Assembly (NCBI GenBank): GCA_025458525.1
Contig: JALOSF010000005.1
Location: forward strand, 1-64,000
Source of the DNA: Cypionkella sp.
GTDB taxonomy: Bacteria > Pseudomonadota > Alphaproteobacteria > Rhodobacterales > Rhodobacteraceae
Length of the DNA stretch: 64,000 nt
Reading direction: 5' to 3'
The translations under genes and the position numbers were made by a program. Numbering within the stretch: position 1 is the stretch's first letter; the number at the start of each line of letters is the position of its first letter. This document shows, piece by piece, positions 20,469-47,298 of this stretch. The notes beneath the pieces are model-generated. The model was not told the DNA's origin. It searched no databases and saw only the letters and a list, made by a program, of their open reading frames with translations.

Positions 20469-21298
<830 letters not shown>

Positions 21299-21302
<4 letters not shown>

Positions 21303-22249: not shown

Positions 22250-22291
22250 CTTACCCTCCCCGATCGGGCCCATGCGGCCCGGTTTGAAGGA

Positions 22292-22314
22292 CGGGCGGCC
22301 ATGCGGGCCGCCCG
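22292..22314 (-). other. Intercistronic hairpin after the SBP gene (CGGGCGGCC-atgcg-GGCCGCCCG)
   Basis: 9-bp perfect stem between thuE-like and thuF-like genes. Confidence 0.7.
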
Positions 22315-22343
22315 CCACAGGGGTCAGTGTGGTCCGGGAGGAC

Positions 22344-23621: not shown

Positions 23622-23712
23622 TGGTAGTCCTCCCATCAGGCGCGGCAAAACGGGGGCGCCTTTTCCCATACCGATCGCTTCGCGGCTTTGGCGCCTCCTT
23701 GCGCCACGGCTT

Positions 23713-23728
23713 TCCGAAACGTTTCGGA
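23713..23728. promoter_or_regulatory. LacI-type operator TCCGAAACGTTTCGGA
   Basis: Perfect 16-bp palindrome with LacI-family central CG, upstream of the thuE-like gene. Confidence 0.8.
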
Positions 23729-23791
23729 TGCATAGGATGACAGGGTGTTCACGGTCAACGATTCGTTATCGGATCGGCGCGAGGCCAGGTT

Positions 23792-28352: not shown

Positions 28353-28360
28353 CACGACTC

Positions 28361-28385
28361 CCTGCCCCGGATTGTCCGGGGCAGG
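28361..28385 (+). other. Intercistronic hairpin after the SBP gene (CCTGCCCCGGA-ttg-TCCGGGGCAGG)
   Basis: 11-bp perfect stem between DppA-like and DppB-like genes, no U-tract. Confidence 0.75.
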
Positions 28386-28405
28386 GCAGAAGGCAGGTTC
28401 CCTGA

Positions 28406-29323: not shown

Positions 29324-30204
29324 CCGTTCCCGTCGCAGACCGCCCCGCCTCGCGCCCCTTTGCCGTCCGGCGCTTTTTCGCGCGCCACACCATCGGCCTG
29401 ATCGGGCTGACCATCCTGCTTTGCGCGGTATCGGCGGCTTTGTTCGCCCCCTGGATCGCGCCGCATCCGCCCTCGGCCGTCAATCTGATGGCGCGTCTGG
29501 CCCCGCCCGCCTGGGTCGAGGGCGGGTCGATGACCCATCTCCTCGGCACCGACAACCTTGGCCGCGACATCCTCAGCCGGGTGATCTACGGCGCCCAGGT
29601 TTCGCTTTCGGTCGGGGCGGGTGCGGTGGTGCTTGGCGCGATCATCGGCTCCAGCGTGGGCCTGCTGGCCGGATATTTCGGCGGCTGGGTCGATGCGGTT
29701 CTGTCCTTTCTGATCAACGTGCAACTGTCCTTTCCGTTCACCTTGCTGGCCATCTTTCTGTTGGCCAGTTTCGGCGGCGGCTTTGTGTCGGTGGTGGTGG
29801 TGGTGGCGCTTGCCACATGGGTCAACTACGCCCGTGTGGTGCGTGGTCAGGTGATGAGCGTGACCAATCAGGACTATGTCGAGGCGGCGCGGACCGTGGG
29901 CGTGCCCACGCTGCGTATCCTGCGCCATTACATCTTGCCCAATATCCTGTCGCCGATCATCGTGGTCGCCAGCTTTTCGATGGCCCAGGCCATCCTGACC
30001 GAGGCCGCGCTCAGCTTTCTGGGTGTGGGCGTGGGCGGCACCCAGCCGTCTTGGGGCATGATGCTGAACGATGGTCGCAATTATCTGCAAAACGCGTGGT
30101 GGATGACCGCGATGCCGGGCATCGCCACCGCGCTGACCGTGCTGGCCGGCAATCTGTGCGGCGACTGGTTGCAGGACCGGACCGACCCGAGGTTGCGCAA
30201 ATGA
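29320..30204 (+). CDS. ABC transporter permease (DppC-like)
   Basis: HLLGTDNLGRDILSRVIYGAQVSLSVG; DYVEAARTVGVPTLRILRHYILPNILSPIIV. Confidence 0.92.
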   Translation: MTVPVADRPASRPFAVRRFFARHTIGLIGLTILLCAVSAALFAPWIAPHPPSAVNLMARLAPPAWVEGGSMTHLLGTDNLGRDILSRVIYGAQVSLSVGAGAVVLGAIIGSSVGLLAGYFGGWVDAVLSFLINVQLSFPFTLLAIFLLASFGGGFVSVVVVVALATWVNYARVVRGQVMSVTNQDYVEAARTVGVPTLRILRHYILPNILSPIIVVASFSMAQAILTEAALSFLGVGVGGTQPSWGMMLNDGRNYLQNAWWMTAMPGIATALTVLAGNLCGDWLQDRTDPRLRK

Positions 30205-31184
30205 GTGGCCCCATGCTGGATGTGCAGAACCTGTCGGTGACCTTTCAAAGCGACGGTGGACCCGTCTATGCCGTGCGCGACCTGTCGCTTCGTCTTGCGC
30301 CGGGCGAGGTGATCGGCATCGTGGGGGAAAGCGGGTCGGGCAAATCGGTGACGATGATGTCGGTGTTGCGCCTGCTCGACACCCGGCGCACCGAGATTTC
30401 GGCGACAGAACTGGCGGTCGATGGCCAGTCGCTGCTGGGGCTGCCGGCCCGTGCGTTGCAGGATTTGCGCGGCCCCGTCGTGTCCTATATCTTTCAGGAT
30501 CCGCTGACCGCGCTCAACCCGCTGCTGACGGTGGGCCGCCAATTGACCGAAGGCATGCGGCGCCATGCCGGGCTGGGCCGGGCCGAGGCGCGGGCCAAGG
30601 CGCTGGATCTGCTGCGGCGCGTGGGCATTCCCGCGCCCGAATTGCGGATCGACCAGTTGCCGCATCAGCTTTCGGGCGGCATGCGGCAGCGCGTGATGAT
30701 CGCCATCGCGCTGGCCTGTGATCCGAAATTGCTGATCGCCGACGAACCGACGACGGCGCTTGATGTGACCGTGCAGGCCGAGATCGTCCGTCTGGTGCAG
30801 TCGATTCAGGCCGAACGCGGAATGGCGATGGTCTGGGTCACGCATGATCTGGCGCTGCTGGCCCGGCTGGCCGACCGCGTGGTCGTGATGTATGCGGGCC
30901 GCATCATCGAGGACGCCCCGGCCCGAACGCTCTATTCGTCACCCGCTCATCCCTATACGGCAGGGCTGCTTGCCAGCACGTCGCGCATCGACGATCCCTT
31001 CACCGAACAGACCTCCATCCCTGGCATGCCGCCAGATCCGCGACGCATCGCACCCGGGTGCAGCTTTGCCCCGCGCTGCACGCGGGCGCTGGCCCAGTGC
31101 CAAACGGTCGTGCCGCCCTTGGTGCAACAGCCCGACGGCCGCCGCCTTGCCTGTTTCAACCCCTTGCCGGAAGCCCACACATGA
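30201..31184 (+). CDS. ABC transporter ATP-binding protein (DppD-like)
   Basis: [55 protein letters not shown] 30201 in ORF 29421-31184. Confidence 0.9.
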
Positions 31185-32167
31185 CCGCCGTTCCCGTGAT
31201 ACATGCCAAAGGGTTGACGGTCGAATTCGGCGTGCGCCGCTCGGTCTTGACGGGGCGCAAGGCGGGGGCGGTGCAAGCGGTCAGCAACGTTGACCTGACG
31301 GTAGATCGCGGCGAAACGCTGGCGGTGGTCGGGGAAAGCGGCTGCGGCAAAAGCACGCTTGGCCGCGCGCTCTTGCGCTCGGTTCCGATCGCCCAAGGCC
31401 GGCTGGAGTTCATGGGCAAGGATATCACCGAGCTGGAAGGCGATGCGCTGCGTGCCGCGCGCCATCAATTCCAGATGGTGTTCCAGGACCCCTATGCCTC
31501 GCTCAACCCCAAGATGAAGATCTTCGAGACCTTGGCCGAACCCTTGCGCGTTCATACCACGGACAGCGCCGCCACCATCCGCGAGCGCGTGATGGACATG
31601 ATGGCCGCCGCCGGGTTGGCGCCGGATTTCGCAAGCCGCTATCCGCATGAATTCTCGGGTGGTCAGCGGCAGCGCGTGGCGATTGCCCGTGCGGTGATCC
31701 TGCGCCCCGATTTCGTGGTGGCGGACGAGCCGCTTTCGGCGCTGGATGTGTCGTTGCAACTTCAGATCCTGACGCTGTTTCGCCAGCTGAAGTCCCAGTT
31801 TTCGCTGACCTATCTGTTCATCTCGCATGATCTGGCGCGGGTCTTCGGCTTTGCCGACCGGATCGCGGTGATGTATCTGGGCAAGATCGTCGAGATCGGA
31901 ACCGCGCGGGAAATCTATGCCGCGCCCGCCCATCCCTATACCCGGGCGCTGATTGCCGCGGCCCCGTCGCCCGACCCCGCGCGCGGCACCGAACGCGATG
32001 CGCTGACCCTGCGCGGCGAATTGCCAAGCCCCGCGAACCCGCCCAAGGGCTGCCGCTTTCACACCAGATGCCCGCTGGCGATGCCCGTCTGTTCCGAGGT
32101 GGAGCCGCAGATGGTTGGGCTTGGCGGGCGGCATGCCGCCGCCTGCCATCTTGTCACGCCGGGCTGA
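31181..32167 (+). CDS. ABC transporter ATP-binding protein (DppF-like)
   Basis: VGESGCGKSTLGRALLRSV, FSGGQRQRVAIARAVILRPDFVVADEPLSALDVS; start 31181 in ORF 31058-32167. Confidence 0.9.
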   Translation: MTAVPVIHAKGLTVEFGVRRSVLTGRKAGAVQAVSNVDLTVDRGETLAVVGESGCGKSTLGRALLRSVPIAQGRLEFMGKDITELEGDALRAARHQFQMVFQDPYASLNPKMKIFETLAEPLRVHTTDSAATIRERVMDMMAAAGLAPDFASRYPHEFSGGQRQRVAIARAVILRPDFVVADEPLSALDVSLQLQILTLFRQLKSQFSLTYLFISHDLARVFGFADRIAVMYLGKIVEIGTAREIYAAPAHPYTRALIAAAPSPDPARGTERDALTLRGELPSPANPPKGCRFHTRCPLAMPVCSEVEPQMVGLGGRHAAACHLVTPG

Positions 32168-32185
32168 GGCATGCGTGGCGGCGTA

Positions 32186-33439
32186 TCACGACCGGGCCGC
32201 CTTGCGCAGCCCGTTCCAGCGGTGCAGCAACTGGTCCGCGATGGCCGCAGGGGAAAGCCTGCGTTCGTGCAGAAGCTGGTGCCGGATCAGGTCATCGGCT
32301 TGGCTGGACCAATCAAGGAACCACGCCTGTTGCGTCGGCGGCGAGACCTGTGCCCGATTGCGCCCCTCGATCAGGCGGGCCACATGATCCTGCGTCCCGG
32401 GCGCCGGAAAGAACCGGCCAAGGGCCGCTTGCACGGCGCGGTCGCGGTCGAGTTCCGGGTAGGGCACCGCAAACAGGCAGTCCGTCAGCCAGCGCTGGTG
32501 CACGCCGGGGCGGCCCGTCGCATCGCGCCCGCCCAGATAGGTCAGCAAAGCCTCGGCCCGGCTGCGCATGGCCGGATCGATCCGCGCATTCAGGCACAAC
32601 AGCGCGTGCCCCGGGAAAAGTGCCGTGCCCGTGGCGCCGGGCAGCGCCATCGGCACATTGATCGGGCGCCCCGCCTGTTGTGCGGCATCGGCGGCCAGAT
32701 AATCCATGGTAAAGGTCATCACATGCTGCCCGCTGGCCCAGCGGATCACGGCGGGGGTGTCGCCCTTGTCATGCACTGCTGCGGGGGGCACCAAAGCCTC
32801 GCGGCACAGGGTGTCAAAGAACCGCAATGCCGCGGTCATCGCCTCTGGCGCGCCCGCGTCGTCAAGGCTCAGGACGCCCTCGCTCGCCAGATGGCACAGA
32901 AGGCTCCAGACCAGCCCGGTCTGGCTGTCATGCCAGCGGGGCACAAAGGGATGCGCGATGCCGCCCCGCTGGCTTGCGCGCAGATGGTCCAGCACCGCGT
33001 CCCAGCTTGTCAGATCGTCCGGCACGGCGTGGTCGCAATGGGCAAACACCGCGAAAGGCCCCCCGTTGTAATAGGTGAGCCCGATCAGATCACCGGCGGC
33101 ATTGCGCGCGCCCTCGATCAGCCGCGCGTCCATCCCCGCGAGCGACGCCGCCAGCGGCCCCGTTTCCTCCAGCGCCCGAAGGAACCCGCGCGCGTCCCAC
33201 TGGGCCGCTTCGGCCCGCTGGGCATAGAACACCATCGGCGCCGCGCTGGTTTCAAAGGCGTGGTCCATCCAGCTGCCGTAATCGCCCGCGATTTCATGGG
33301 CGATGATGCTTGCGCCGGTTTCGGCGGCGAAGCGCGCCAGATTGTCTGTCACCACATCGGGCCGAACGTTCCAGAATGCAAAGCTGATCGGCGGCTCTGC
33401 TGCGCTGCCGATGAGGGTGCTGTGAACCGTGCTGTCCAT
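32186..33439 (-). CDS. Solute-binding-protein-like (SBP family 1-like) protein without signal peptide
   Basis: 417 aa ISFAFWNVRPDVVTDNLARFAAETG...DLIGLTYYNGGPFAVFAHCD...WASGQHVMTFTMDYLAADAAQQAGRPINVPMALPGATGTALF; in-frame TGA seven codons upstream fixes the start. Confidence 0.65.
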   Translation of the reverse strand: MDSTVHSTLIGSAAEPPISFAFWNVRPDVVTDNLARFAAETGASIIAHEIAGDYGSWMDHAFETSAAPMVFYAQRAEAAQWDARGFLRALEETGPLAASLAGMDARLIEGARNAAGDLIGLTYYNGGPFAVFAHCDHAVPDDLTSWDAVLDHLRASQRGGIAHPFVPRWHDSQTGLVWSLLCHLASEGVLSLDDAGAPEAMTAALRFFDTLCREALVPPAAVHDKGDTPAVIRWASGQHVMTFTMDYLAADAAQQAGRPINVPMALPGATGTALFPGHALLCLNARIDPAMRSRAEALLTYLGGRDATGRPGVHQRWLTDCLFAVPYPELDRDRAVQAALGRFFPAPGTQDHVARLIEGRNRAQVSPPTQQAWFLDWSSQADDLIRHQLLHERRLSPAAIADQLLHRWNGLRKAARS

Positions 33440-33442
33440 CCA

Positions 33443-33456
33443 GAAAGGATCCTTTC
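33443..33456. promoter_or_regulatory. Shared divergent RBS palindrome GAAAGGATCCTTTC
   Basis: Perfect 14-bp palindrome supplying AAAGGA to both start codons (33439 minus, 33457 plus), which are 17 bp apart. Confidence 0.75.
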
Positions 33457-34950
33457 ATGCGCGACCTGTTGATCCGCAACGGCAACTTACTGCTGTCGGC
33501 CGACCATGAAAACCTCTTGCGGGCCGATGTGCTGATCCGCGACGGGGTGATCGTGCAGATTGCGCCGGAACTGTCCGCCGATGTCGAAACGCTTGATGTT
33601 GCGGGGGATATCGTGATCCCCGGCCTGATCAACGCGCATGTCCATTCGCCGGGAAACTTCATGCGCGGCACACTCGAAGGGCTGCCGCTGGAAGTGTTCA
33701 TGCTGTATGAAGTGCCCCCCCTTGCCTCGGGGCGCGAAGACCCGGCCCGCGTGCGCCTGCGCACCCTGATCGGCGCGGCCGAGATGCTGAAGCTCGGCAT
33801 CACTTCGGTGATGGATGATGCGTTCTTCGTGCCCCTGACGACGCCCGAGGCGATCGATGCCATTGCCGGGGCCTATGACGATATCGGGATTCGCGCGACG
33901 CTGGCGCTGGATCAGCCGATTGTCGTCGAATATGACAAATACCCGTTCCTGAAGGATATTCTGCCGCCCGATCTGCGCCGCACGATGGAGGATGCCCCGC
34001 GAGAGACGGCAGAGGGGATGCTGGCCCATTACGACCATCTGATCCGCGAATGGCATGGGGCAGGGCAGGGGCGGATCGCGGCGGCCGTGTCCTGCTCGGC
34101 CCCGCAGCGCGCAACGCCCGACTATCTGCGCGCGCTGCACGGGCTGTCGCAGACCCATGATCTGCCGTTCTTCTGCCATATCCTTGAGACGAAATTGCAG
34201 CGCGTGCTGGGGATCGAAAAGTTCGGCATGTCCCTGATCCGCTATGTCGATCAGCTTGGCATTCTGGATGAGCGGATGCTGGTCATCCATTCGATCTGGG
34301 TCGATGACGAGGATATCGCGATCCTTGGCGCCTCGGGGGCCAGTGTGGCGCATAACCCGGTGTGCAACCTGCGGCTTGGCAGCGGCGTCATGCCGTTTCG
34401 CAAGCTGCGCGATGCCGGGGTGCCGATCTGCCTTGGCACCGATGAGGCGGTCAGCGACGACAGCCACAATCTGTGGGGCGCGATCAAGACCGCGGGCGTC
34501 GTGCATGCGATCAGCGGCGGCGATTACGCGCGCTGGCCAAAGGCGCAGGAAATCCTCGCCGCCGTCTGGGACGGCGGGCATCGGGCCATGCGGCGCCCGC
34601 AGCGGCTGGGCCGGATCGAAACCGGGGCGGCGGCCGATCTGGCGGTGCTGGATGCAAGGGGGGCTGCGTTCCAGCCCTTGCATGACATCCGCCGCGCGCT
34701 TGTGCTGGCCGAAGCGGGGGCCTCGGTGCGGCACACGGTGGTGGATGGGTTGGTCGTGGTGCGCGACGGGCGCCTGACGCGGATCGACGAAGACCTTTTG
34801 CGCGCGGACCTGCGGCGCCTCGAGCCGCAATTGCGCGCCGAGGCGGTGGCGCTGCGGGCGGGGGCAGAGCAGCTTGAACCCTATTACCGCCAGATCGTGG
34901 CGCGTGCCGCCGCGACCGATGTCGGCTTTTCAAGGTGGGTAGGACAATGA
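33457..34950 (+). CDS. Amidohydrolase-superfamily protein (TrzA/AtzA/guanine deaminase-like)
   Basis: PGLINAHVHSPGNFMRGTLEGLPLE, FFCHILETK, LVIHSIWVDDEDI, VAHNPVCNLRLGSG, CLGTDEAVSDD. Confidence 0.9.
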   Translation: MRDLLIRNGNLLLSADHENLLRADVLIRDGVIVQIAPELSADVETLDVAGDIVIPGLINAHVHSPGNFMRGTLEGLPLEVFMLYEVPPLASGREDPARVRLRTLIGAAEMLKLGITSVMDDAFFVPLTTPEAIDAIAGAYDDIGIRATLALDQPIVVEYDKYPFLKDILPPDLRRTMEDAPRETAEGMLAHYDHLIREWHGAGQGRIAAAVSCSAPQRATPDYLRALHGLSQTHDLPFFCHILETKLQRVLGIEKFGMSLIRYVDQLGILDERMLVIHSIWVDDEDIAILGASGASVAHNPVCNLRLGSGVMPFRKLRDAGVPICLGTDEAVSDDSHNLWGAIKTAGVVHAISGGDYARWPKAQEILAAVWDGGHRAMRRPQRLGRIETGAAADLAVLDARGAAFQPLHDIRRALVLAEAGASVRHTVVDGLVVVRDGRLTRIDEDLLRADLRRLEPQLRAEAVALRAGAEQLEPYYRQIVARAAATDVGFSRWVGQ

Positions 34951-35840
34951 CCTTGCATCCTGATCGCGATTTTCTGGGCTATGGCGAGGTGCCGCCCCGC
35001 GTGCGCTGGCCGGGGGACAAGGCGGTGGCCGTTTCGCTGGTGCTCAATATCGAAGAAGGCGCCGAATTCGCGCTGTCCTCGGGGGATGCGCGCAACGAGG
35101 CAGTCTATGAGGTGCATCAGGAACTGACCGGCGCGCGCGATCTGTGCATGGAAAGCCATTTCGAATACGGCAGCCGCGCAGGCTATTGGCGCATCATGCG
35201 GGTGCTCGACAGCTTTGGCGTCAAGGTGACGCTGAACCTGTGTGGGCGCACGCTCGAGTCGACCCCGTGGCTTGCGCGGCACGCCGTGGCGCATGGCCAT
35301 GAGATCATGTGCCACGGCTGGCGCTGGGAAGATCAGGCCCATATGCCCGAGGAGGAGGAACGCGCCCTGATCCGCCGCTGCGCGGAAGGGATCGAGGCCG
35401 CGACAGGACAACGCCCGCGCGGTTGGCATGTGCGCAGCTATCCATCGGTCAACACCCGGCGGCTGTTGCAAGAGGAAGGGTTTCTTTACGACTGCAACGC
35501 CTATCACGACGATCTGCCGGTCACGCTGCGCCGGGGCGACCGGCCCTATGTCGTGCTGCCTTATGCCTTTGATACCAACGACATGAACTTTTACAAATCG
35601 CAGCGCTTCGTGCATGGCAGCGATTTCGCCCGCTATTGCAGCGATGCCTTTGACTGGCTGGCGCGCGAGGCGGCAACTGCGCCGCGCATGATGACCATCG
35701 GCCTGCACACCCGCATCCTGGGCCGGCCCGGGCGGATTGCCGGGCTGGAGCAGTTTCTGGCCCATCTGGCGCAGGCGGGAACCGCCTGGGTGGCCCGGCG
35801 CGACCAGATCGCGCAGGTCTGGCTTGATCAGGGGCTTTAG
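34947..35840 (+). CDS. Polysaccharide deacetylase-fold (NodB) protein, PuuE allantoinase-like
   Basis: VSLVLNIEEGAEF, SRAGYWRIMRVLDSFGVKVTLNLCGRTLE, GHEIMCHGWRWEDQ, RSYPSVNTRRLLQEEGFLYDCNAYHDDLP. Confidence 0.85.
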   Translation: MTLHPDRDFLGYGEVPPRVRWPGDKAVAVSLVLNIEEGAEFALSSGDARNEAVYEVHQELTGARDLCMESHFEYGSRAGYWRIMRVLDSFGVKVTLNLCGRTLESTPWLARHAVAHGHEIMCHGWRWEDQAHMPEEEERALIRRCAEGIEAATGQRPRGWHVRSYPSVNTRRLLQEEGFLYDCNAYHDDLPVTLRRGDRPYVVLPYAFDTNDMNFYKSQRFVHGSDFARYCSDAFDWLAREAATAPRMMTIGLHTRILGRPGRIAGLEQFLAHLAQAGTAWVARRDQIAQVWLDQGL

Positions 35841-36718
35841 ACGGCCAGCCCCGGGTCGGCGTGGATCACCTCGGCGATCTGGCCCGGGGTCGTCAGCCAC
35901 ACGCGGTCCATGTGGGCGGCGATATGCGCCAAGGCCCGGCGCAGCGCGCGCAGCCGGAACGGCTGACCCGAGATGAAGGAATGGATCACGATCGGCATCA
36001 CCAGCGGCTGATCCTCGGACGCCTCGAGCATTTCGTCGAACTGGTCGATGATCATCTGGGCAAAGTCGGTCGCGCTGGCCTGTCGCCCGATGATGGTGGA
36101 ACTGTCGTTCACCTCCAGCGCATAGGGGATGCAAAGCAGCTTGCCCGTGGCGGTGTTCAGCCAGACCGGCTGATCGTCCATCCCCAGATCCAGCACATAG
36201 CGATAGCCGGTTTCGTGCAAGAGATCCGGCGTGGCCTGGGTATGGGCCAGCCAAGGGCTTGACCAGCCCGCCGGGGGCGCGCCTTCCTGCCTGCGGATCG
36301 CGTCAGAGACGGCGCGCAGATAGGCGCGCTCCTCCTCGGGGCTGCGTCCGGCAAGGGTATGCGAATTGGTCAGACCATGCGCCACGATCTCGCAGCCATG
36401 GGCGCGGGCGAAATCCACCAGATCGGGGGCATGGTCATAGACTTCGGTGTTGAGCAGCAGCGCCACGGGAAATCCTTCGCGCGTCGCCCGTTCGATCAGC
36501 CGAAAGCCGCCCACACGGTTGCCATAGTCACGCCAGGACACATTGGCATAGTCGGGCTTTGACGCGCCGGGGAACAGATCTTCGGTCAAGCCTTCGCCAA
36601 ATATGTATTCCTCGACGCCAAGCGCAAGATAGACCGCCAGACGCTTGCCCCCCGGCCAGTGATAATCGGGCCGTCGGGTGATCGGGCTGTAATCATAGCG
36701 GGTCTGGCGGGGCAGCAT
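35837..36718 (-). CDS. Polysaccharide deacetylase-fold (NodB) protein (second, divergent paralog)
   Basis: RLAVYLALGVEEYIFGEG, GCEIVAHGLTNSH, WSSPWLAHTQATPDLLHETGYRYVLDLGMDDQP. Confidence 0.85.
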   Translation of the reverse strand: MLPRQTRYDYSPITRRPDYHWPGGKRLAVYLALGVEEYIFGEGLTEDLFPGASKPDYANVSWRDYGNRVGGFRLIERATREGFPVALLLNTEVYDHAPDLVDFARAHGCEIVAHGLTNSHTLAGRSPEEERAYLRAVSDAIRRQEGAPPAGWSSPWLAHTQATPDLLHETGYRYVLDLGMDDQPVWLNTATGKLLCIPYALEVNDSSTIIGRQASATDFAQMIIDQFDEMLEASEDQPLVMPIVIHSFISGQPFRLRALRRALAHIAAHMDRVWLTTPGQIAEVIHADPGLAV

Positions 36719-36728
36719 GATCGCTCTC

Positions 36729-37820
36729 CTATTGCCCGGTGCCCAGCAGCGACCGGCGCGTCAGCTTGCGGCTGACGGCAAAGCGGGCCGCGTCGCTGCG
36801 CAGATGGTCGCGCTTGTTCGGGTCGGTGCCACTGGCAAAGCCAAGATGATAGGCCAGAAGCTGAAGCGCGATGGCTTGCGTGATCCCGGCGGTATCGGCG
36901 GCACCCGGCAGGGCAAGGCGCATGGTCGCGCTTTGAACCGACACCCCTTGGGGTTCGAGCGCAAGGGTCACGACATCCAGATCGGCCAGCGCATCGGCCG
37001 TTGCCTCGGCATAGGCGGCGGTCGCGGCATCGCCCGGCAACAGGACCACAAGCTCCGACAGCTGCATGCTCCAGTATTGGCGATGGGCGAATTCCTCGAT
37101 GTCATCGCTCCAGGCCGGGATTTTCGTGACCTCGACACATTTGGCCGCCGCATAATCCGCCGTCGCCACCGACGCGCCCGCCCCAAGAAAGCGCGCGCCG
37201 CTGATCCGGCTGCCCGTGCGCTGCGCCACATCCTTGCCAAAGGCATCGGCGCGGTTGATCAGGTCGGGCAGGGCGGGCAGAACGGCGGCAAGGCTGTTGG
37301 CAAACCCGGGCCATGCGGTCGGAAAGGCCAGTTGCAGCACGGCAAGTGTCGCGGTGTAACTCGACGTGCCGCACAGGAAGGGCGCGATATCCGGGATGCC
37401 AAGCGAAAAGCGGTTGACCCCCAGCGCGCCAAGCCGACCGCCGCCCTCATTAGTCAGGATGGCGACCGTTGCCCCAGAGGCCATGGCCAGTTGCGCCCCT
37501 TCCAGCGTGCGGTCCACATTGCCCGACATGGAGATCGCCAGCGCGCGGTCGTCCGCACCAAGGCGCGGCGCCACATTCAGCGTGAAATCAAGCCCCGAGG
37601 CCGCCCGTCCAGCCTCGGACCCGGTCAGGGCCGCGCGCGCGGCAAACCACCCGTCGCCCGACCCGAAGACCCAGGCCCGGCCCCCGTTGCCCGGCCGCAG
37701 GCTTTGCGCGGCAAAGCGCGCGATGTCATCCTTGCGGGCCAGAAGATCGGCCAGAACCTGCGGCTGGCGGTGGATGTCGGCCTGCATCGGCGGGATGGCA
37801 AGCGTCGGGCTGTCGGTCAT
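36729..37820 (-). CDS. SIS-domain sugar isomerase/aminotransferase-like protein (1)
   Basis: WVFGSGDGWFAARAALTGSEAG, ALAISMSGNVDRTLEGAQLA, ARFLGAGASVATADYAAAKCVEVTKIPAWSDDIEEFAHRQY; start MTDSPT preferred over 37895. Confidence 0.8.
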   Translation of the reverse strand: MTDSPTLAIPPMQADIHRQPQVLADLLARKDDIARFAAQSLRPGNGGRAWVFGSGDGWFAARAALTGSEAGRAASGLDFTLNVAPRLGADDRALAISMSGNVDRTLEGAQLAMASGATVAILTNEGGGRLGALGVNRFSLGIPDIAPFLCGTSSYTATLAVLQLAFPTAWPGFANSLAAVLPALPDLINRADAFGKDVAQRTGSRISGARFLGAGASVATADYAAAKCVEVTKIPAWSDDIEEFAHRQYWSMQLSELVVLLPGDAATAAYAEATADALADLDVVTLALEPQGVSVQSATMRLALPGAADTAGITQAIALQLLAYHLGFASGTDPNKRDHLRSDAARFAVSRKLTRRSLLGTGQ

Positions 37821-37915
37821 GTCGGTCTTGTCCCTTTGCACCGGCAGAGGGCGCCGGATGCTGCGAAAGGTCACGGCATCGCCTGCAAAAGGCAAGAAAA
37901 ATTTGCGATAATTTT

Positions 37916-37935
37916 GCTTTCGATTTCTTTCGAAG
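37916..37935. promoter_or_regulatory. Candidate DeoR/AgaR-type operator GCTTTCGATTTCTTTCGAAG
   Basis: Repeated TTTC(G) units as in AgaR/DeoR-family sites, just downstream of the deoR-type gene and upstream of the SIS gene. Confidence 0.5.
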
Positions 37936-37955
37936 TTAAGATTCTGTAAGATTGC

Positions 37956-38729
37956 CTAGGCAACGAGCACTTCCAGCCCGGCCGCCCGCAAGTCGCGCAG
38001 GATTTCGGCAGAGGTGTTGGAGTCGGTGATCAGCGTATCGACTTGATCCAGCATGGCGATCCGTGCGGTGGCGATATGGCCGATCTTGGTGTGATCGGCC
38101 AGAAACACCACGCGCCCGGCTGCCTTTATCATCGCCTTCTTGATCTCCGCCTCCTCCCAGTTGCCATTGGTGAACCCCTTTACCGGGTCGACCCCGGCGC
38201 AGCTCATGAAGGCGATATCGGCGTTGATTTCCTTAAGGATTAGGTCGCCAAACGGCGAGATCAGCGAGTTCAGGCGTGGGCGCAGCGTGCCGCCGGTGAC
38301 GATCACCGTGGCGCCTGCGTGATCGACAAGTTCAATCGCGACGGGCAATGAATTGGTCACGACGGCAATATCGGTCAGGCTGCGCGGAAAGGCGTTGGCC
38401 AGGGCCGCGACGGTGGACCCGGTGTCCATGATGACCGTTTCGCCATCGCGGATCATCTCGGCCGCAAGCGCGGCAATCGCGTTCTTTTCTGCACTGCGCA
38501 GGGCGGCGTTGATATCGACGGGGCGTTCATAGCGGCTGGGCCGCACCGCGATGGCACCGCCCCGGATCCGGCGCAAAACCTGGCTTTTCTCCAGAAAATG
38601 CAGGTCGGCGCGGATCGTGACGGTCGAGACCATCAGGCTGTCTGCCAGGTCCATCACATCGACCCGCCCCTGCGCCGCAAGCTGAGCCATGATCTGCTGA
38701 TGTCTTTCGGTAGCTTTCAAAGCTGGCAT
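37956..38729 (-). CDS. DeoR-family transcriptional regulator
   Basis: ERHQQIMAQLAAQGRVDVMDLADSLMVSTVTIRADLHFLEKSQVLRRIRGGAI. Confidence 0.92.
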   Translation of the reverse strand: MPALKATERHQQIMAQLAAQGRVDVMDLADSLMVSTVTIRADLHFLEKSQVLRRIRGGAIAVRPSRYERPVDINAALRSAEKNAIAALAAEMIRDGETVIMDTGSTVAALANAFPRSLTDIAVVTNSLPVAIELVDHAGATVIVTGGTLRPRLNSLISPFGDLILKEINADIAFMSCAGVDPVKGFTNGNWEEAEIKKAMIKAAGRVVFLADHTKIGHIATARIAMLDQVDTLITDSNTSAEILRDLRAAGLEVLVA

Positions 38730-38844
38730 CTGTTAAAAATCCTGTGACTTTGATTCTTGTCTTGCTTGCCGCAGCATAAACGGTTTCTTCCCGCGGCACA
38801 GGCTGCTGGTTCGGCCGTCGCGCTCGGCCATTCCGGAGTGTTCC

Positions 38845-39642
38845 ATGCCCGTCCCTGCCGTGATCGCTGCCCTGCAACTGCCGCCCTTCAAGGGGGGGGC
38901 TGTCCGCCCCTTCTCCTGGTATGAGGATTTTCTGCTCTCCAACGCCCGGATCTTCGTCGAGGCCGGGATCACCGCAATCAAGGTGCAGGACGAAACGCGC
39001 GAGGAAGGCCCCGCCGCGATGCAGACGGTGGCGCGGATGGCGGCCTTGGGCCGCAGTTTCCGGCGCGAATTTCCGGGCACCGCGCTTGGCATCATCGTGC
39101 AGGCGCATGACGCGGTCGGCCCGCTTGCCATCGCCGACGCCTGCGATGCCGATTTCGTGCGGCTCAAGGTCTTTGTCGGCGCTGCGGTGAATGCCGAAGG
39201 GCTGCGCATGGCGCTCAATATCCCCGCGACCCAGTATCGCGCCGCGATTGGCCGGCAGGACATCAAGATTTATGCCGATGTGCATGACCGCACCTGCGTG
39301 CCGCTGGCGGGCATGGCGCCGGAAACGGCGGCGGTCTGGGCGCAGTCGCTTGGCGCGGATGCGGTGATCCTGACCGGCTCGGGCTTTGACGACACCTTGT
39401 CGCGCGTGGCGGCGGCGCGCAAGGCGGGCGTCGTGCGCCCGATCCTGATCGGGGGCGGTGTGACCACGGCCAATATCGGCGCGGCGCTGTCGGCGGCCGA
39501 CGGGGTGATCGTCAGCACCGCGTTGCTGCGCGACGGGGCGGCGCATGACGATTTCGCCCTGTGGGACCGCGAAAAGGTCTTGCGGCTGGTCGAGGCCGCC
39601 CAGACCGCCCGTCACCCTGCCGCCACCGTCATTGCCGACTGA
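38845..39642 (+). CDS. BtpA/SgcQ-family (TIM-barrel) protein
   Basis: VIAALQLPPFKG, ITAIKVQDETREEGP, DADFVRLKVFVGAAVNAEG, DVHDRTCVPLAG, LGADAVILTGSG. Confidence 0.88.
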   Translation: MPVPAVIAALQLPPFKGGAVRPFSWYEDFLLSNARIFVEAGITAIKVQDETREEGPAAMQTVARMAALGRSFRREFPGTALGIIVQAHDAVGPLAIADACDADFVRLKVFVGAAVNAEGLRMALNIPATQYRAAIGRQDIKIYADVHDRTCVPLAGMAPETAAVWAQSLGADAVILTGSGFDDTLSRVAAARKAGVVRPILIGGGVTTANIGAALSAADGVIVSTALLRDGAAHDDFALWDREKVLRLVEAAQTARHPAATVIAD

Positions 39643-39660
39643 CTGACAAAGGAACCCCGG

Positions 39661-40833
39661 ATGTCTTATGCCGATCTTACCCCGCTGCTGGCCGAGGACT
39701 CTCCTCTGGACGAGGCGCAAAAGGCCCTGATTGCCGAGTTGTTTGCGCGCGAGCAATCGCTGATGGCGGCGCTGCCGACCGATGACCCGCTGGACCCCAA
39801 GCGCCGCAGCCGGGTTGATTTCACCTTGCCCGAGATCCTGGAACAGCCCGATGTGATCCGCGCCACCCTTGGCCGCGAGCGCGCGGCCATTGCCGCCGCT
39901 GCCCGCAGCGTGGCCGCATCAAACCTGCGCCGCATCTGCATGACGGGGTGCGGCGACTCGCTGGCGGTGATGACCGGCGTGCGCAGCCTGCTGGAGGACA
40001 TGACCGGCCTGCCGTGCGAGCCGATCCAGGCGCTCGATCTGGCCTATTACCAGCACCGCCTGCTGGGGCCCGATGTGCTTGTCATCACGCTCAGCTCCAG
40101 CGGCACCACGACACGCACCGTCGAGGCGCTGATGATGGCAAAGGCGCGTGGCGCGCAGGCGCTGGCGCTGAGCAACACGCCCGGCTCTGCCCTGATGACG
40201 CAATCGGACCACCGCCTGACGATCCACGCCCAACGCAAGGGCTGGCCGACGCAAGCCAGCACCGCCGCCATGGCGCTGCTCAGCCAGTTCGCGATCGATA
40301 TCGGTGCGGCGCGCGGGCTTGATGTGTCGGCGCTTCAGGCCGCGCTGGATGCGGTGCCAGATCAGATCGCGCAGGTGATCGCCGATCATCAGGACAGCAT
40401 CGCCGCCATTGCCGAGGCCGAGCGCGACCGCAGCACCTATCTTTTTGCGGGCGGCGGCACGTCCTATGCCGCGGCGCTGTTCGGGGCGGCCAAGGTCAAG
40501 GAATGCACCCCCGATCACGCCATCGCCATTCCGCAAGAGGAATTCCACCACTACAATTCGCAAAAGCTGGGCGATCCCTTGATGCTGATCGCGCCCGCCG
40601 GGCCATCGGTTCCGCGCGCGCATGACACGGCGCAGGAAGGCAAGCGCTGGGGCGGGCAGGTCTATGCCATCGTCACCGGCGACGAGCCGCGCTTTGACGA
40701 TGTGGCCGATGCCGTTCTGCGCCTGCCTGCGGTGCCGGAATCTTTGTCCTCGCTGGTCTATACCATCCCGGTGCAGCTTTATGCCTATCATCTGGCGATG
40801 GCGAAATTCCGTGCGGCGGAAGCCCGGACATGA
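39661..40833 (+). CDS. SIS-domain sugar isomerase/aminotransferase-like protein (2)
   Basis: ICMTGCGDSLAVMTGVRSLLEDMTGLPCEPIQALDLAYY, VITLSSSGTTTRTVEALMMAKARGA, YLFAGGGTSYAAALFGAAKVKE. Confidence 0.88.
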   Translation: MSYADLTPLLAEDSPLDEAQKALIAELFAREQSLMAALPTDDPLDPKRRSRVDFTLPEILEQPDVIRATLGRERAAIAAAARSVAASNLRRICMTGCGDSLAVMTGVRSLLEDMTGLPCEPIQALDLAYYQHRLLGPDVLVITLSSSGTTTRTVEALMMAKARGAQALALSNTPGSALMTQSDHRLTIHAQRKGWPTQASTAAMALLSQFAIDIGAARGLDVSALQAALDAVPDQIAQVIADHQDSIAAIAEAERDRSTYLFAGGGTSYAAALFGAAKVKECTPDHAIAIPQEEFHHYNSQKLGDPLMLIAPAGPSVPRAHDTAQEGKRWGGQVYAIVTGDEPRFDDVADAVLRLPAVPESLSSLVYTIPVQLYAYHLAMAKFRAAEART

Positions 40834-41756
40834 CCGCACCGCGCCTTGTCTGCCTTGGCAATTTCACCATCGATGACGTGGTCTTGCCCGATCTGACCGA
40901 ACGGCCCGGGTGCACCGGCGGGGATGCGCTTTATGCCACGCTTGCCGCGCGGCCCTGGCAACCCGCGACCGAACTCGTCGCGCCGATCGGGTCGGATTTT
41001 CCCGCCTCGATCGCGCAAGCCATGGCGCGCGAAGGGTTGAACGACGCAGGCTTTGCCCGCCGCGACCTGCCCACGCTGCACAACCGGGTGGAATATTTCG
41101 CCGACGGCGGCCGCAAGTGGACCCTGTTTGCCAAAGAGGGGGCGTTTGATGCGCTCTCGCCCCTGCCTGGCGATATTCCGGCCAGCTATCTTCAGGCCGA
41201 CGCCTTCATGATCCTGGCCATGACCCTGTCGGGTCAGCAGCGTCTGGTTGATGATCTGACCGCGCGGCCCGGCAAGCTGGTCGCGCTTGACCCGCAGGAA
41301 GATTACATCCGTGGGAACGAGGCGGCGATCCTTGAGATGATCGCCAAGGTCGATATCTTTTTGCCAAGCGCGGAGGAGGTCGTGCGCCTGCTTGGCACCT
41401 CCGACTGGCTGGCGGCCGCGCGGCGCTTTGCCGCCCTTGGGCCACGACTGGTGGTCATCAAGCTGGGCGAGGACGGCTGTCTGGTGCATGAGGCGGCAAC
41501 AGGGCGCACGACCAGGGTTCCCGCCTATGCGGTGGACCGCGTGGTTGATACCACCGGCGCAGGCGACAGCTTTTGCGGCGCCTTCATGGCCGCCTATCTG
41601 CAAGACCCCGATGCGGTGCGCGCCGCGCGGGCCGGGGCGGTTGCAGCCTCGGTGACGGTGCAGGGCTACGGCGTCGATCCGCTGTTTGCCGCCGATCCGG
41701 CCGAGATGCGGCGCCGGTTTGAAGCCTGGGCGCCGAACTGCCCGCAGATCGCCTAA
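40830..41756 (+). CDS. PfkB-family carbohydrate kinase
   Basis: CLGNFTIDDVVLPDLTERPGCTGGDALYATLAAR, VVDTTGAGDSFCGAFMAAYL. Confidence 0.93.
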   Translation: MTAPRLVCLGNFTIDDVVLPDLTERPGCTGGDALYATLAARPWQPATELVAPIGSDFPASIAQAMAREGLNDAGFARRDLPTLHNRVEYFADGGRKWTLFAKEGAFDALSPLPGDIPASYLQADAFMILAMTLSGQQRLVDDLTARPGKLVALDPQEDYIRGNEAAILEMIAKVDIFLPSAEEVVRLLGTSDWLAAARRFAALGPRLVVIKLGEDGCLVHEAATGRTTRVPAYAVDRVVDTTGAGDSFCGAFMAAYLQDPDAVRAARAGAVAASVTVQGYGVDPLFAADPAEMRRRFEAWAPNCPQIA

Positions 41757-42487
41757 CCCTTGGGCATCAGACCGGCATAGGCCCCGGTCAGACCCTTGAG
41801 CGGGGGGAAGGCAAAGCTCGCGCGTTTGCTGGTGCGCAGGCCAAGCGTCACCAGCCCTTCGGCCAGTTTCAGCCCCGCCATCACCCCGTCGATCACCGGA
41901 ACACCAAGGCTTTGGCCCAGCGGCTCGACAAGCCCGCTTAACCCCGCACAGCCCAGAATGATGGCTTCGGCGTGGTCTTGCTCCAGCGCGCGACGGCCTT
42001 CGGCTTCAAAGGCCGCGCGCACCGCCGCGTCTTCGTCCAACAGATCAAGCACCGGAAGGTCAATGGCCCGCACCACGCAGCGCTCGGTCAGGCCGGTCTC
42101 GCGCAGCACGCGGTCGCTGTGAATGCGGGTGCGCGGGGGCAGGGTGATCACGGTGAACCGTGCGGCCACCAGGGCCGCGGCGTAAAGTGCGGCTTCCGTC
42201 ATGCCGATCACTGGCGCAGCGGTGATTTCCCGCGCGGCGGCAAGCCCCGTGTCGCCGAAACAGGCGATGACATAGCCGTCCACCCCGTCGCGGTCCCCGT
42301 CGCGCACCATTTCGATCACCCCCATCGCGCCGATGGCTTCTTCGACATGGCTTTCCACGCTGGGCGTGCCGGTGGCGGGGCTGCGGGCATCGACCTTGGT
42401 GCCGGGCGCTGCCAGACGGGCGGCCGCGCTTTCCAGATCATGGGTGAAGGCAAGGGTGGTGTTCGGGTTCAGGATACGGATGTGCAA
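41753..42487 (-). CDS. Aspartate/glutamate (hydantoin) racemase-family protein
   Basis: HIRILNPNTTLAFTHDLESAAARLAAPGT, CFGDTGLAAAREI, AIILGCAGLSGLVEPLG; TTG start inferred. Confidence 0.88.
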   Translation of the reverse strand: MHIRILNPNTTLAFTHDLESAAARLAAPGTKVDARSPATGTPSVESHVEEAIGAMGVIEMVRDGDRDGVDGYVIACFGDTGLAAAREITAAPVIGMTEAALYAAALVAARFTVITLPPRTRIHSDRVLRETGLTERCVVRAIDLPVLDLLDEDAAVRAAFEAEGRRALEQDHAEAIILGCAGLSGLVEPLGQSLGVPVIDGVMAGLKLAEGLVTLGLRTSKRASFAFPPLKGLTGAYAGLMPKG

Positions 42488-42683: not shown

Positions 42684-45080
42684 TCAGGCGGGCAAGGCCG
42701 TGCGCCGCCGCGCAAGGGCAGACCGATCCCCGGGCGACAGCGCCAGAACCGCCTGCACCAAGGACTGGCGGTCGATCCCGAAATGACGGTAAAGATCGCC
42801 GATCGTGCCGGTCTGCCCGAAATGTTCGACCCCGCGCGACACCGTCCTGTGGCCGCCCACCGCCCCCAGCCAGGCCAGTGTGGCGGGATGTCCATCGATC
42901 ACCGTCAACATCAGGCAGTCGCGCGGCACATCCTGAAGCAGGGTCTCGATATGGCTGGACGCGCCGACGGTGCCGCGCACCCGCGCGCGCTGCGCCGCCG
43001 TCCAGCCCGCGTTCAGCCGATCCGCCGACGTGACCGCCAGCACACCGACATCGCGCCGATGTTCGCCCAACAGCCCGGCTGCCGCGATCGCCTCGGGCGC
43101 GATGCAGCCCTGATAGGCGATGACCACATCGCAATTCGGCCCCGGTTTGCGCAGCCAATAGGCCCCGTCGATTGCGCCTTGCCGGAAGGCATCATCCTGC
43201 CGTTTTCCGGGCTGCTCCAGCGGGTTGGTGGTCAGCCGCAAATAGACCGATCCGCCGGTTTCATCGCGCAGCCAGGTGCGTTCGTCCGGGTCGCCCTCGC
43301 CCGAGCGCTGCATGTAGTCGAAGGCCCATTCTAGGATCACCGCCAGTTCATCGGCAAAGGCGGGTTCAAAGGCTGCCAGCCCATCTTGGGACAGGCCGGT
43401 CAGCGGCGTGCCGATCGACTGATGCGCGCCGCCTTCGGGGGCAAGCGTCACACCCGAGGGCGTGCCGACGATCATGAAGCGCGCATCCTGATAGCAGGCA
43501 TAGTTCAGCGCATCGAGCCCGCGATGGACAAAGGGATCATAAACCGTGCCGATGGGAAACAGCCGCTTGCCGAACAGGCTGTGCGACAGGCCCGCAGCCC
43601 CCAGCAGCAGGAACAGGTTCATCTCGGCGATGCCCAGTTCGATGTGCTGGCCCTCGGGGGCGAAGTCCCATTTCGCGGTGGACGGAATGCGGTGTTCGAT
43701 GAAGGTGTCGGCCCGCGCCTTGCGGGCGAACAGCTTGCGCCGGTTGACCCAAGGGCCAAGGCTGGTGGTCCCCGTCACATCGGGCGAGGTGGTCACAATC
43801 CGTTCGGCCAGCGGGCTGCCCCCCCTGGCCAGATCGTCGAGGATCTTGCCAAAGGCCGCTTGGGTCGAGATTTCGCGCTCTGTCTCGACCGCAATCGGCG
43901 GCACAGGCAGCCGCGCATCGGTAAAGCGCCGTGGACCTTTGGCAAAGAACGGCACCTGCGCCAGAAAGGCGCGCAAGCCGTCTGGGTCCGGCACGGCGGC
44001 AAAGGGCTCCCATTCCGCGCCTTGGGGCACGCCCATGTGCTTTTGCCAGGCTGCGAATTGCGTCTGGGTCATCAGCCCGCCGTGGTTGTCCTTGTGGCCC
44101 GCGATGGGGGTGCCCCAGCCCTTGATCGTATAGGCCAGAAAGCAGGTGGGCCGGTCATGGGTGATGGCGTCAAACGCCTCGGCCATGGTCTGCACGCAGT
44201 TGCCGCCCAGGTTTTCCATCAGCGCGGCAAGCTCGGCATCGCTGCGCGCCTCGATCAGCGCTGTCACCTCGCCTTGATCGCCCAGATCATCCAGCAGCCG
44301 CCGACGCCAGACCGCGCCGCCCATGAAGGTCAGCGCGGCATAATCCTGGTTCGGGCAGGCATCGATCCAGTCGCGCAAGGCGGCCCCGCCCGGCTCGGCA
44401 AAGGCCGCGCGTTGCAAGGCCCCGTATTTGATCCGCACCACATCCCAGCCAAAGGCGTCAAAGATCTTTTCCACCCTTGCAAACAACCCCTCGCGCACGA
44501 TCCCGTCCAGCGACTGGCGGTTGTAATCGATGATCCACCAGCAGTTGCGAAGGTCGTTCTTCCAGCCTTCCTGCAAGGCCTCATAGATATTGCCCTCATC
44601 CAGTTCCGCATCGCCCACCAGCGCCACCATGCGGCCCAAGGGCAGATCGCGGCCCCAGGCCTTGGCCGAAATGTAATCCTGCACCAAGGCCGCGAAGGAC
44701 GTGATCGCAACCCCAAGACCGACCGACCCGGTCGAGAAATCCACATCATCGCTGTCCTTTGTCCGGCTGGGGTAGCTTTGCACCCCGCCCAGGCCGCGAA
44801 AGTTTTCCATCGCCGCGCGCGACAGGTTGCCCATCAGATACTGGATCGCGTGAAACACAGGCGCTGCATGCGGCTTGACCGCCACCCTGTCCTCGGGGCG
44901 CAGGGCGTGAAAGTAAAGCGCCGTCAGGATCGACACCATCGAGGCAGACGAGGCCTGATGCCCGCCGATCTTTATGCCATCCACCTTTGGGCGCAGATGG
45001 TTGGCGTGATGGATCATCCAATGCGACAACCACAGCAACCGCTGTTCCAGCGTCTTGAGAGGGGGGGCGTCTGGTGTCAT
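42684..45080 (-). CDS. Transketolase / homodimeric pyruvate dehydrogenase E1-like protein
   Basis: KIGGHQASSASMVSILTALYF, DFSTGSVGLGVAITSFAALVQDY, ALVGDAELDEGNIYEALQEG (ThDP motif), NDLRNCWWIIDYNRQSLDG; N-terminal ORF extension rejected. Confidence 0.88.
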   Translation of the reverse strand: MTPDAPPLKTLEQRLLWLSHWMIHHANHLRPKVDGIKIGGHQASSASMVSILTALYFHALRPEDRVAVKPHAAPVFHAIQYLMGNLSRAAMENFRGLGGVQSYPSRTKDSDDVDFSTGSVGLGVAITSFAALVQDYISAKAWGRDLPLGRMVALVGDAELDEGNIYEALQEGWKNDLRNCWWIIDYNRQSLDGIVREGLFARVEKIFDAFGWDVVRIKYGALQRAAFAEPGGAALRDWIDACPNQDYAALTFMGGAVWRRRLLDDLGDQGEVTALIEARSDAELAALMENLGGNCVQTMAEAFDAITHDRPTCFLAYTIKGWGTPIAGHKDNHGGLMTQTQFAAWQKHMGVPQGAEWEPFAAVPDPDGLRAFLAQVPFFAKGPRRFTDARLPVPPIAVETEREISTQAAFGKILDDLARGGSPLAERIVTTSPDVTGTTSLGPWVNRRKLFARKARADTFIEHRIPSTAKWDFAPEGQHIELGIAEMNLFLLLGAAGLSHSLFGKRLFPIGTVYDPFVHRGLDALNYACYQDARFMIVGTPSGVTLAPEGGAHQSIGTPLTGLSQDGLAAFEPAFADELAVILEWAFDYMQRSGEGDPDERTWLRDETGGSVYLRLTTNPLEQPGKRQDDAFRQGAIDGAYWLRKPGPNCDVVIAYQGCIAPEAIAAAGLLGEHRRDVGVLAVTSADRLNAGWTAAQRARVRGTVGASSHIETLLQDVPRDCLMLTVIDGHPATLAWLGAVGGHRTVSRGVEHFGQTGTIGDLYRHFGIDRQSLVQAVLALSPGDRSALARRRTALPA

Positions 45081-45647: not shown

Positions 45648-46349
45648 GTGGAGTTGATAGATCTGGGTCTCGCCAAGCGGAACGAGGAAAGTTTTGTCAC
45701 TTTCCTTGACCAGATCTGTAGCAGGTTCGAACTCGATCACGCCGCCTATGCCGGCACCAACCCCGTTTCCGGCGCGATCCATGGCTATGTCACCTATCCC
45801 GATGCCTGGAAGCGGCATTATGCGGAAAACGGCCTGCACCGTCTTGATCCGACCCTGATCATGGCCAGCAAATCGATCGCGCCGGTCGATTGGCGTCGGC
45901 TGGAGCGGACCGCGGGCTATGACACGGTGTTTCGCGACGCGCGTGACTTTGGCATCACCGAGCGTGGCCTGACCATTCCCGTGCGCGGGCCTTATGGCGA
46001 CATCGGTATGCTCAGCGTGACCCGCGATTGCAGCGTGACCGAATGGGAAAAGCTGTTGCGCCACATCCTGTCGGATCTGCAATCGGTGGCGGTGCATGTG
46101 CATGATACCGTGATGCGATCGGACGCTTTGTCGCGCGCGCTGCGCTATCCGTCGCTGTCCACGCGAGAACGTGAAATCCTGCAATGGATCGCCGCCGGAA
46201 AATCGCAGCAGGATGTCGGCGATATCCTTGGCATCTCGCACCGCACGGTCGAGGTGCATCTCCGCTCGGGGCGCGAGAAACTCTATGCGCTGACCACGCC
46301 ACAGGCGGTGGGGCGCGCGATCATGCTGGGCCTGATCTATCCTCTTTAG
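45648..46349 (+). CDS. LuxR-family regulator with autoinducer-binding domain
   Basis: Autoinducer-binding domain (W/Y/D pattern) plus SLSTREREILQWIAAGKSQQDVGDILGISHRTVEVHLRSGREKLYA; GTG start. Confidence 0.93.
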   Translation: MELIDLGLAKRNEESFVTFLDQICSRFELDHAAYAGTNPVSGAIHGYVTYPDAWKRHYAENGLHRLDPTLIMASKSIAPVDWRRLERTAGYDTVFRDARDFGITERGLTIPVRGPYGDIGMLSVTRDCSVTEWEKLLRHILSDLQSVAVHVHDTVMRSDALSRALRYPSLSTREREILQWIAAGKSQQDVGDILGISHRTVEVHLRSGREKLYALTTPQAVGRAIMLGLIYPL

Positions 46350-46378
46350 CGCGACAGGAAGATCAACCTTTACGGGAT

Positions 46379-46446
46379 TCCCCTCATGGTCTGCGCGGCG
46401 GATGCCGTTTACCCTTTGACACAGATGGACATCATGTCAGGGGAAC
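46379..46446 (+). promoter_or_regulatory. Inverted repeat potentially sequestering the luxI ribosome-binding site
   Basis: TTCCCCT-CATG (46379-46389) versus CATG-TC-AGGGGAA (46434-46446); AGGGG is the likely SD for ATG 46450. Confidence 0.45.
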
Positions 46447-46449
46447 GAG

Positions 46450-47298
46450 ATGATCATAGTCATTGACGCATTGAACAAGGATCGCTTTGCCGACCTTCTG
46501 GACGACATGTATCAGCTGCGCGCGCGGGTGTTCGGCGACCGTCTGGGGTGGGAAGTCGAGATCATCGACGGGCGCGAAATCGATCAGTTCGACCGGCTGG
46601 ACCCGGCTTATGTGATCGGTCTGGATGACGAAGGCCACGTCGTCTCTTGCGTGCGGGCGTTGCAGACCACGGGTCCGCACATGCTTTCGGACGTGTTTCA
46701 GGCCATTCTCGATGGCGAGCCGCCGCTGCGCAGCGCCACCTTGTGGGAATCGACCCGGTTTTGCGTGGACACCCAGCGACTGTGCCGCGATGGCAACACG
46801 ATGAAGGCCGTCTCGCTTGCGACCTGCGAACTCATGATCGGCTCGCTTGAATTCGCGCGGCGGTCGGGGATTGCCGATATCATCACCGTGATCGACCCGG
46901 TGATCGACCGGGTGCTGAAACGGTCAAACAACGCGCCCTATGATTACGTCGGTTCGACCAAGCAGATGGGCAAGGTGCCCGCGATGGCCGCCCTGCTTGA
47001 TTGCAGCGAGGAGCGGATCGCCCGCGTGCGCGACTTTGCCGGCATCCATCACGATGTGTTTGCCAGCGAAGATCAGGTGCGCCAGCTGCTCGACAAGCGC
47101 CACGCCGAAGCCGACCGTGTCGCAATCGCCCAAGCCGAGGCCGAAGGGACCAGCGTGGTCAGCGCGCAGCAGTTGATGGACTATTGCCGCGAACAGCTTG
47201 ACGCCGCCCGGACCGAGGAAGAACGCGCCGCAGCACGGCGGCTGGTGGCGGTGCTGCTTGACAACACGGACCGGCCCGGCCTGCGTCTGGCGGTTTGA
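46450..47298 (+). CDS. Acyl-homoserine-lactone synthase (LuxI family) with long C-terminal extension
   Basis: LDDMYQLRARVFGDRLGWEVEIIDGREIDQFDRLDPAYVIGLDDEGHVVSCVRALQTTGPHML, LWESTRFCVD. Confidence 0.94.
   Translation: MIIVIDALNKDRFADLLDDMYQLRARVFGDRLGWEVEIIDGREIDQFDRLDPAYVIGLDDEGHVVSCVRALQTTGPHMLSDVFQAILDGEPPLRSATLWESTRFCVDTQRLCRDGNTMKAVSLATCELMIGSLEFARRSGIADIITVIDPVIDRVLKRSNNAPYDYVGSTKQMGKVPAMAALLDCSEERIARVRDFAGIHHDVFASEDQVRQLLDKRHAEADRVAIAQAEAEGTSVVSAQQLMDYCREQLDAARTEEERAAARRLVAVLLDNTDRPGLRLAV

Follow-up and report, generated by a model that had tools for sequence, protein, structure and literature searches.

The window, a 64,000-nucleotide stretch of Cypionkella sp. DNA, carries a real, conserved catabolic operon that is apparently undescribed and larger than first reported. 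A sequence-only reading of this DNA had placed a BtpA/SgcQ protein, two SIS proteins, a PfkB kinase and a DeoR regulator here, and Pfam assigns PF03437, PF01380, PF00294 and HTH_DeoR/DeoRC at those places. The interval then given, 38845–41756, does contain module genes but proved too narrow, as the conserved unit covers about 25378–42487. Two further claims did not survive this extension. A dedicated transporter, said to be lacking, is present as a complete Dpp-type ABC importer (26847–32167) syntenic with the module, and the supposed want of any substrate hint is countered by two PuuE/allantoinase-like proteins, a TRZ/ATZ amidohydrolase and an allantoin-racemase-like protein that travel with it. 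The broader proposal is supported, namely an as yet uncharacterised BtpA-SIS-PfkB pathway that is linked to DeoR and follows the logic of amino sugars or sugar phosphates. What the sequence itself shows is the importer, the conserved association of the genes, how they are arranged in operons, the fold families to which their products belong and the residues of the active sites. The genes are as follows (compared loci are designated by L numbers):

25378–26850, + strand: AmidoH2, a second TRZ/ATZ-type amidohydrolase, which opens the importer operon (PF01979, 98 bits)
26847–28352, + strand: family 5 (oligopeptide/opine-type) solute-binding protein (open reading frame; homologous to SBP5 in L049, L052–L054, L056, L066 and L077)
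28406–30204, + strand: two Dpp-type permeases, 28406–29323 and 29320–30204 (open reading frames, gene clustering)
30213–32167, + strand: two Dpp-type ATPases, 30213–31184 and 31181–32167 (open reading frames, gene clustering)
32186–33439, − strand: conserved protein of 417 aa without a Pfam match (Devosia counterpart in the equivalent position, 51% identical)
33457–34950, + strand: AmidoH, a TRZ/ATZ-type metal amidohydrolase, deaminase-like (PF01979, 135 bits)
34947–35840, + strand: PuuE-1, allantoinase-like, polysaccharide-deacetylase fold (TIGR03212, 294 bits)
35837–36718, − strand: PuuE-W2, a divergent second allantoinase-like protein (TIGR03212, 107 bits)
36729–37895, − strand, probable start about 37787: SIS-B, a GlmS-isomerase-like double-SIS protein (PF01380, predicted fold)
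37956–38729, − strand: DeoR/AgaR-type regulator, divergent from BtpA (HTH_DeoR and DeoRC)
38845–39642, + strand: BtpA-K, a variant BtpA/SgcQ TIM barrel (PF03437, 93 bits)
39661–40833, + strand: SIS-A, a GlmS-isomerase-like double-SIS protein (PF01380, alignment to GlmS)
40830–41756, + strand: PfkB1 sugar kinase (PF00294, 95 bits)
41753–42487, − strand: Asp/Glu/hydantoin-racemase-family protein, allantoin-racemase-like (PF01177, 162 bits)

The open reading frames of the module are uninterrupted, and the starts and stops of neighbours lie only a few bases apart: SIS-A and PfkB1 overlap by 4 bp, as do AmidoH and PuuE-1, while BtpA lies 18 bp 5′ of SIS-A and the spacing between PuuE and SIS-B is 10 bp. 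For SIS-B the probable start is about 37787 and not 37895, judging from its relatives, which open with M(L/Q)xDIxRQP. By gene clustering, AmidoH2 also heads the importer in L052, L053, L054 and L056, and the divergent DeoR-BtpA pair is found again in L051–L054 and L056–L058. A conserved block beside BtpA (CTTTCAAAG) was considered as a DeoR operator and rejected, as this is where the coding sequence of DeoR begins; no convincing shared palindrome was found.

How widely is this gene set conserved? A single-protein query against genome contigs gave no matches, and a profile built from a three-row alignment recovered 29 loci from named organisms, spanning Rhodobacterales, Hyphomicrobiales, Rhodospirillales and others. 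A set recurring at 29 loci is not a chance association. Although strongly conserved, the module is rare: among 298 genomes, a close relative of its BtpA turned up in a single further genus of the family, and among 385 of the class, in a single genome from a different family. The fullest order obtained by gene clustering is SBP-SBP-SIS-B-PfkB2-ATPase-perm-perm-SIS-A-PfkB1-BtpA-PuuE-PuuE-racemase-like-amidohydrolase, which occurs in full in Skermanella, Aurantimonas, Ancylobacter and Paracoccus and with slight differences in Aureimonas and Alsobacter. This compact operon of 14 genes is available in culturable strains, namely Ancylobacter tetraedralis, leaf isolates of Aureimonas and Aurantimonas, Skermanella and Paracoccus. 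In Devosia psychrophila the arrangement of the window is matched gene for gene over the stretch compared, with the importer syntenic with the module. DeoR, BtpA, SIS-B, AmidoH2 and the same importer are kept in a variant order in Aureimonas AU22, Pseudoruegeria, Kandeliimicrobium and one MAG, three of these four having PfkB as well.

Nineteen of the loci have flanks of 7 kb or more on either side. All 19 carry a SIS gene and an ABC importer, 18 carry PfkB and 10 carry PuuE; AmidoH is present in every one of these ten PuuE-bearing loci. Eight loci show an overlap of BtpA with PuuE, by 4 or 13 bp, and two show an overlap of PfkB with AmidoH, by 4 bp, which places sugar and ring genes in a single transcription unit. 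PuuE, AmidoH and racemase genes are all missing from five adequately flanked operons that do possess the sugar genes (L063, L066, L074, L075 and L077), so that the ring part is not obligatory; from these we argue that the sugar genes form the core, to which the ring genes are an extension. The importer type also differs among loci (Dpp, Pot or BMP; the two binding proteins of Ancylobacter, L070 778–1827 and 1882–2931, are of the Pot type), and the substrate may therefore vary by genome.

To our knowledge, a reaction has yet to be established for any protein of the BtpA/SgcQ family, and we found no BtpA structure in the PDB. BtpA-K scores 93.2 bits against PF03437 (gathering cut-off 30) and stays below the curated cut-offs of TIGR00259 (BtpA/SgcQ; 95.6 versus 153.4) and NF045918 (PSI-biogenesis BtpA; 77.4 versus 400). 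Its AlphaFold model (pLDDT 93.9, pTM 0.90) is a confident one that predicts a phosphate-binding TIM barrel of the ribulose-phosphate-binding kind, the nearest solved folds being thiamin-phosphate synthase, TrpA, KDPGal aldolase, TrpF, HisF and ribulose-phosphate epimerase (TM no higher than 0.75). At the active-site ends of beta strands 4 and 5 it has Lys108 and Asp148-Arg149, respectively, where ordinary BtpA proteins have NQW (Asn-Gln-Trp) and VKH(G) (Val-Lys-His). K108 and D148-R149 are common to the window, alphaproteobacterial, Mesorhizobium and Oscillospiraceae members, and BtpA-K is, judged from its sequence, a distinct BtpA subfamily. The genome of the window has a second BtpA gene of the ordinary type, with NQW and VKH motifs, on another contig (G000:C170, 1256–2026; L037).

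In the E. coli sgc cluster, SgcQ is accompanied by DeoR-type regulation, a PTS transporter and an SgcE-type epimerase. This cluster and the ordinary BtpA-PfkB-sugar-ABC loci resemble the window locus in having a BtpA/SgcQ barrel, often beside a PfkB kinase and a sugar ABC transporter. However, sgc uses a PTS whereas window-type loci use ABC importers, and no PTS or SgcE-like gene was recognised among the conserved clusters of the loci; the window locus is a different cluster from sgc. Ordinary loci differ not only in the motifs described above but also in their partners: SIS, PuuE, AmidoH and racemase genes were found in none of 12 such loci taken as a control. Most ordinary BtpA loci do carry a PfkB gene, and for this reason the substrate of BtpA is plausibly the product of the kinase.

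SIS-A and SIS-B both match PF01380 with two SIS stretches apiece. SIS-A aligns with the isomerase domain of GlmS at 2.7e-47, placing E281 and H297 on E488 and H504, and E248 and H264 of SIS-B align with this pair, which is invariant within each SIS family. The AlphaFold model of SIS-B (pLDDT 89.3, pTM 0.88) finds its best PDB folds in GlmS/GFAT isomerase domains, with TM up to 0.82. Like GlmS/GFAT, the two proteins align across the entire double-SIS unit, but they have no glutaminase domain, a length of 390 aa covering the isomerase part alone; the score on the GlmS equivalog is 147 bits against 418, and SIS-A terminates ahead of the C-terminal catalytic lysine region. By sequence comparison, then, both SIS proteins are GlmS-isomerase-like with the catalytic Glu/His retained. 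Trees set SIS-A apart from SIS-B and PfkB1 apart from PfkB2, the window kinase falling within the PfkB1 clade, whose genes adjoin SIS-A/BtpA. In one genome (L034–L035 of G126; L035 6594–7643), SIS-B and the binding protein adjoin a GlmS-like SIS gene of a third and more divergent kind, SIS-C.

The ring enzymes are also variants of known families. AmidoH is a member of the deaminase/chlorohydrolase group: its profile relatives in the PDB include atrazine chlorohydrolase as well as deaminases of 5-methylthioadenosine/S-adenosylhomocysteine, 8-oxoguanine and guanine, and there is no variation at the His/Glu/Asp positions where metal binding is expected. Among solved structures, the PuuE-like proteins come closest to PuuE allantoinase and the racemase-like protein to the hydantoin/allantoin racemases (HpxA-type). 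However, PuuE-1 (294 bits) and PuuE-W2 (107 bits) are below the TIGR03212 equivalog cut-off of 424.6 and coexist with a real PuuE, encoded on another contig with HIU-hydrolase-like and ureidoglycolate-lyase genes and exceeding the cut-off at 508 bits. Because of this separate allantoinase, the window pair are regarded as paralogs and not as the housekeeping enzyme, and the idea that the module is the housekeeping allantoin pathway was rejected. PuuE-1 shares 55–60% identity with the PuuE-1 proteins of several further operons, and PuuE-W2 has orthologs in Devosia and Jiella. The racemase-like protein (PF01177, 162 bits) of the window, like those of Devosia and one Jiella copy, has Cys76 and Cys180, which we take to be the catalytic cysteine pair of this racemase family; 12 of 15 relatives lack the two. 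In ten loci (L057, L058, L060, L061, L064, L065, L067, L070, L073 and L076) they are replaced by Ala and Gly, and these proteins are probably not two-base racemases.

What, then, might the operon do? The reading that we prefer, although we give it somewhat less than an even chance, is catabolism of an imported sugar or amino sugar N-linked to a hydantoin-, imidazolone- or ureide-like unit, that is, a nucleoside-like or glycated compound. We infer the individual reactions, their order and the origin of sugar and nitrogen ring from a single molecule. Initially, the ABC importer would take up the sugar-linked ring compound, and the PfkB kinase would phosphorylate its sugar. The SIS proteins would then cleave the sugar C–N bond or deaminate an amino-sugar phosphate, using the ring-opening and enolisation chemistry of the Glu/His pair, and BtpA-K would isomerise, epimerise or cleave the freed unusual sugar phosphate so that it can enter central metabolism. 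The nitrogen ring might be deaminated by the amidohydrolase, have its stereochemistry set by the racemase-like protein and be opened by the two PuuE-like proteins, the product passing to the ordinary allantoin/ureidoglycolate route of the genome. DeoR would repress the operon until sugar phosphate builds up. An internally generated sugar, which the sequence-only reading had suggested as one option, is less likely than an imported sugar linked to a nitrogen heterocycle, since the importer and ring genes accompany the module and often share a transcription unit with it. By joining BtpA with a kinase, a pair of SIS enzymes, ring-opening hydrolases and an importer, the operon gives the BtpA family a testable pathway, for which the binding proteins offer a direct route to substrate identification.

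A nucleoside-like substrate is weakly favoured, because PfkB-SIS-BtpA triads related to the module adjoin BMP-type (putative B6/nucleoside-family) importers in Mesorhizobium and because an Oscillospiraceae MAG has a nucleoside hydrolase and a BMP-type binding protein near such a triad; BMP-family importers are not all for nucleosides, and the conserved set contains neither a nucleosidase nor a phosphorylase gene. In pseudouridine catabolism, PsuK, a PfkB kinase, works with the glycosidase PsuG. The likeness is that PfkB phosphorylates a nucleoside ahead of base-sugar cleavage; the difference is that PsuG is of another family, and no PsuG homolog was recognised in the mapped loci. A damaged-nucleoside pathway, which we consider a long shot, would import oxidised purine ribosides of the guanidinohydantoin/spiroiminodihydantoin or allantoin type, phosphorylate them by PfkB, deaminate and open the ring with the amidohydrolase, the racemase and the PuuE-like enzymes, and recover pentose phosphate by means of SIS and BtpA-K. 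If true, it would provide a first enzymatic role for BtpA and a salvage route for damaged nucleosides.

Among known systems, the locus would work most like the fructosamine operon frlBONMD-frlP of B. subtilis, in which a SIS deglycase, an ABC importer and a PfkB-type kinase are combined (PMC12632257). The window locus likewise is a dedicated operon with these three components and its own repressor, and oligopeptide/opine-type and polyamine-type binding proteins would fit Amadori or Heyns cargo; BtpA and the second SIS could then serve a rarer sugar, and the ring hydrolases a cyclised amino-acid part. This remains an unlikely explanation in our estimate. As for identity with an already characterised pathway, the window proteins fall short of the FrlB (18.5 versus 430) and FrlD (40 versus 247) cut-offs, both SIS proteins are nearer GlmS than FrlB, and frl is devoid of BtpA, second SIS, allantoinase-like, racemase-like and amidohydrolase genes. 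A role for BtpA as an Amadori isomerase (HisA/TrpF-like) ahead of a SIS deglycase was dropped, because the deglycase would reverse the step via the same intermediate in a futile manner. Kinase-plus-SIS catabolism of the frl kind is already known, and the version in the window is possibly new; no description of a BtpA-SIS-PfkB route was found in the open literature, the scope of our search.

It might also be supposed that two separate nutrient routes share the locus, one for an unusual sugar or amino sugar (importer, PfkB, SIS and BtpA) and the other for scavenging nitrogen from free allantoin or hydantoin. Where flanks are adequate, about one locus in two is without ring genes, and these genes exist as two versions, that of the window and that of the others, both of which surround a single BtpA-SIS-A-PfkB core in Jiella (L055, 5778–17028), where the window-type AmidoH/PuuE/racemase set has the cysteines. 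We think this improbable, to much the degree that we doubt fructosamines: sugar and ring genes overlap by 4 and 13 bp in independent arrangements (BtpA-PuuE and PfkB-AmidoH), which argues for one pathway, and a complete-looking allantoin cluster already exists elsewhere in the genome. Breakdown of a natural product joining an amino sugar, a cyclic guanidine and a cationic peptide, such as a streptothricin-type antibiotic, is very improbable. On chemical grounds, it would suit peptide/polyamine importers, an amidohydrolase acting on the cyclic guanidine, lactam/hydantoin hydrolases and a kinase with SIS for a rare amino sugar, but gene clustering of the loci yielded no conserved peptidase or amide-bond hydrolase.

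Several genes flank the unit. A sugar ABC cluster at 17587–24814, with a LacI regulator, an oxidoreductase and a ThuA-like gene, resembles the trehalose/maltose operon thuEFGKAB; its inclusion in the module was rejected, and it is judged a separate thu-like operon. On the other side, 42684–45080 encodes a large AceE-like homodimeric 2-oxoacid dehydrogenase E1 of 798 aa (175 bits on the aceE model versus 860), for which the single same-genus genome searched gave only a fragmentary 28% match, and 45648–47298 holds the gene for a LuxR-type regulator and, after it, one for a LuxI-type autoinducer synthase.
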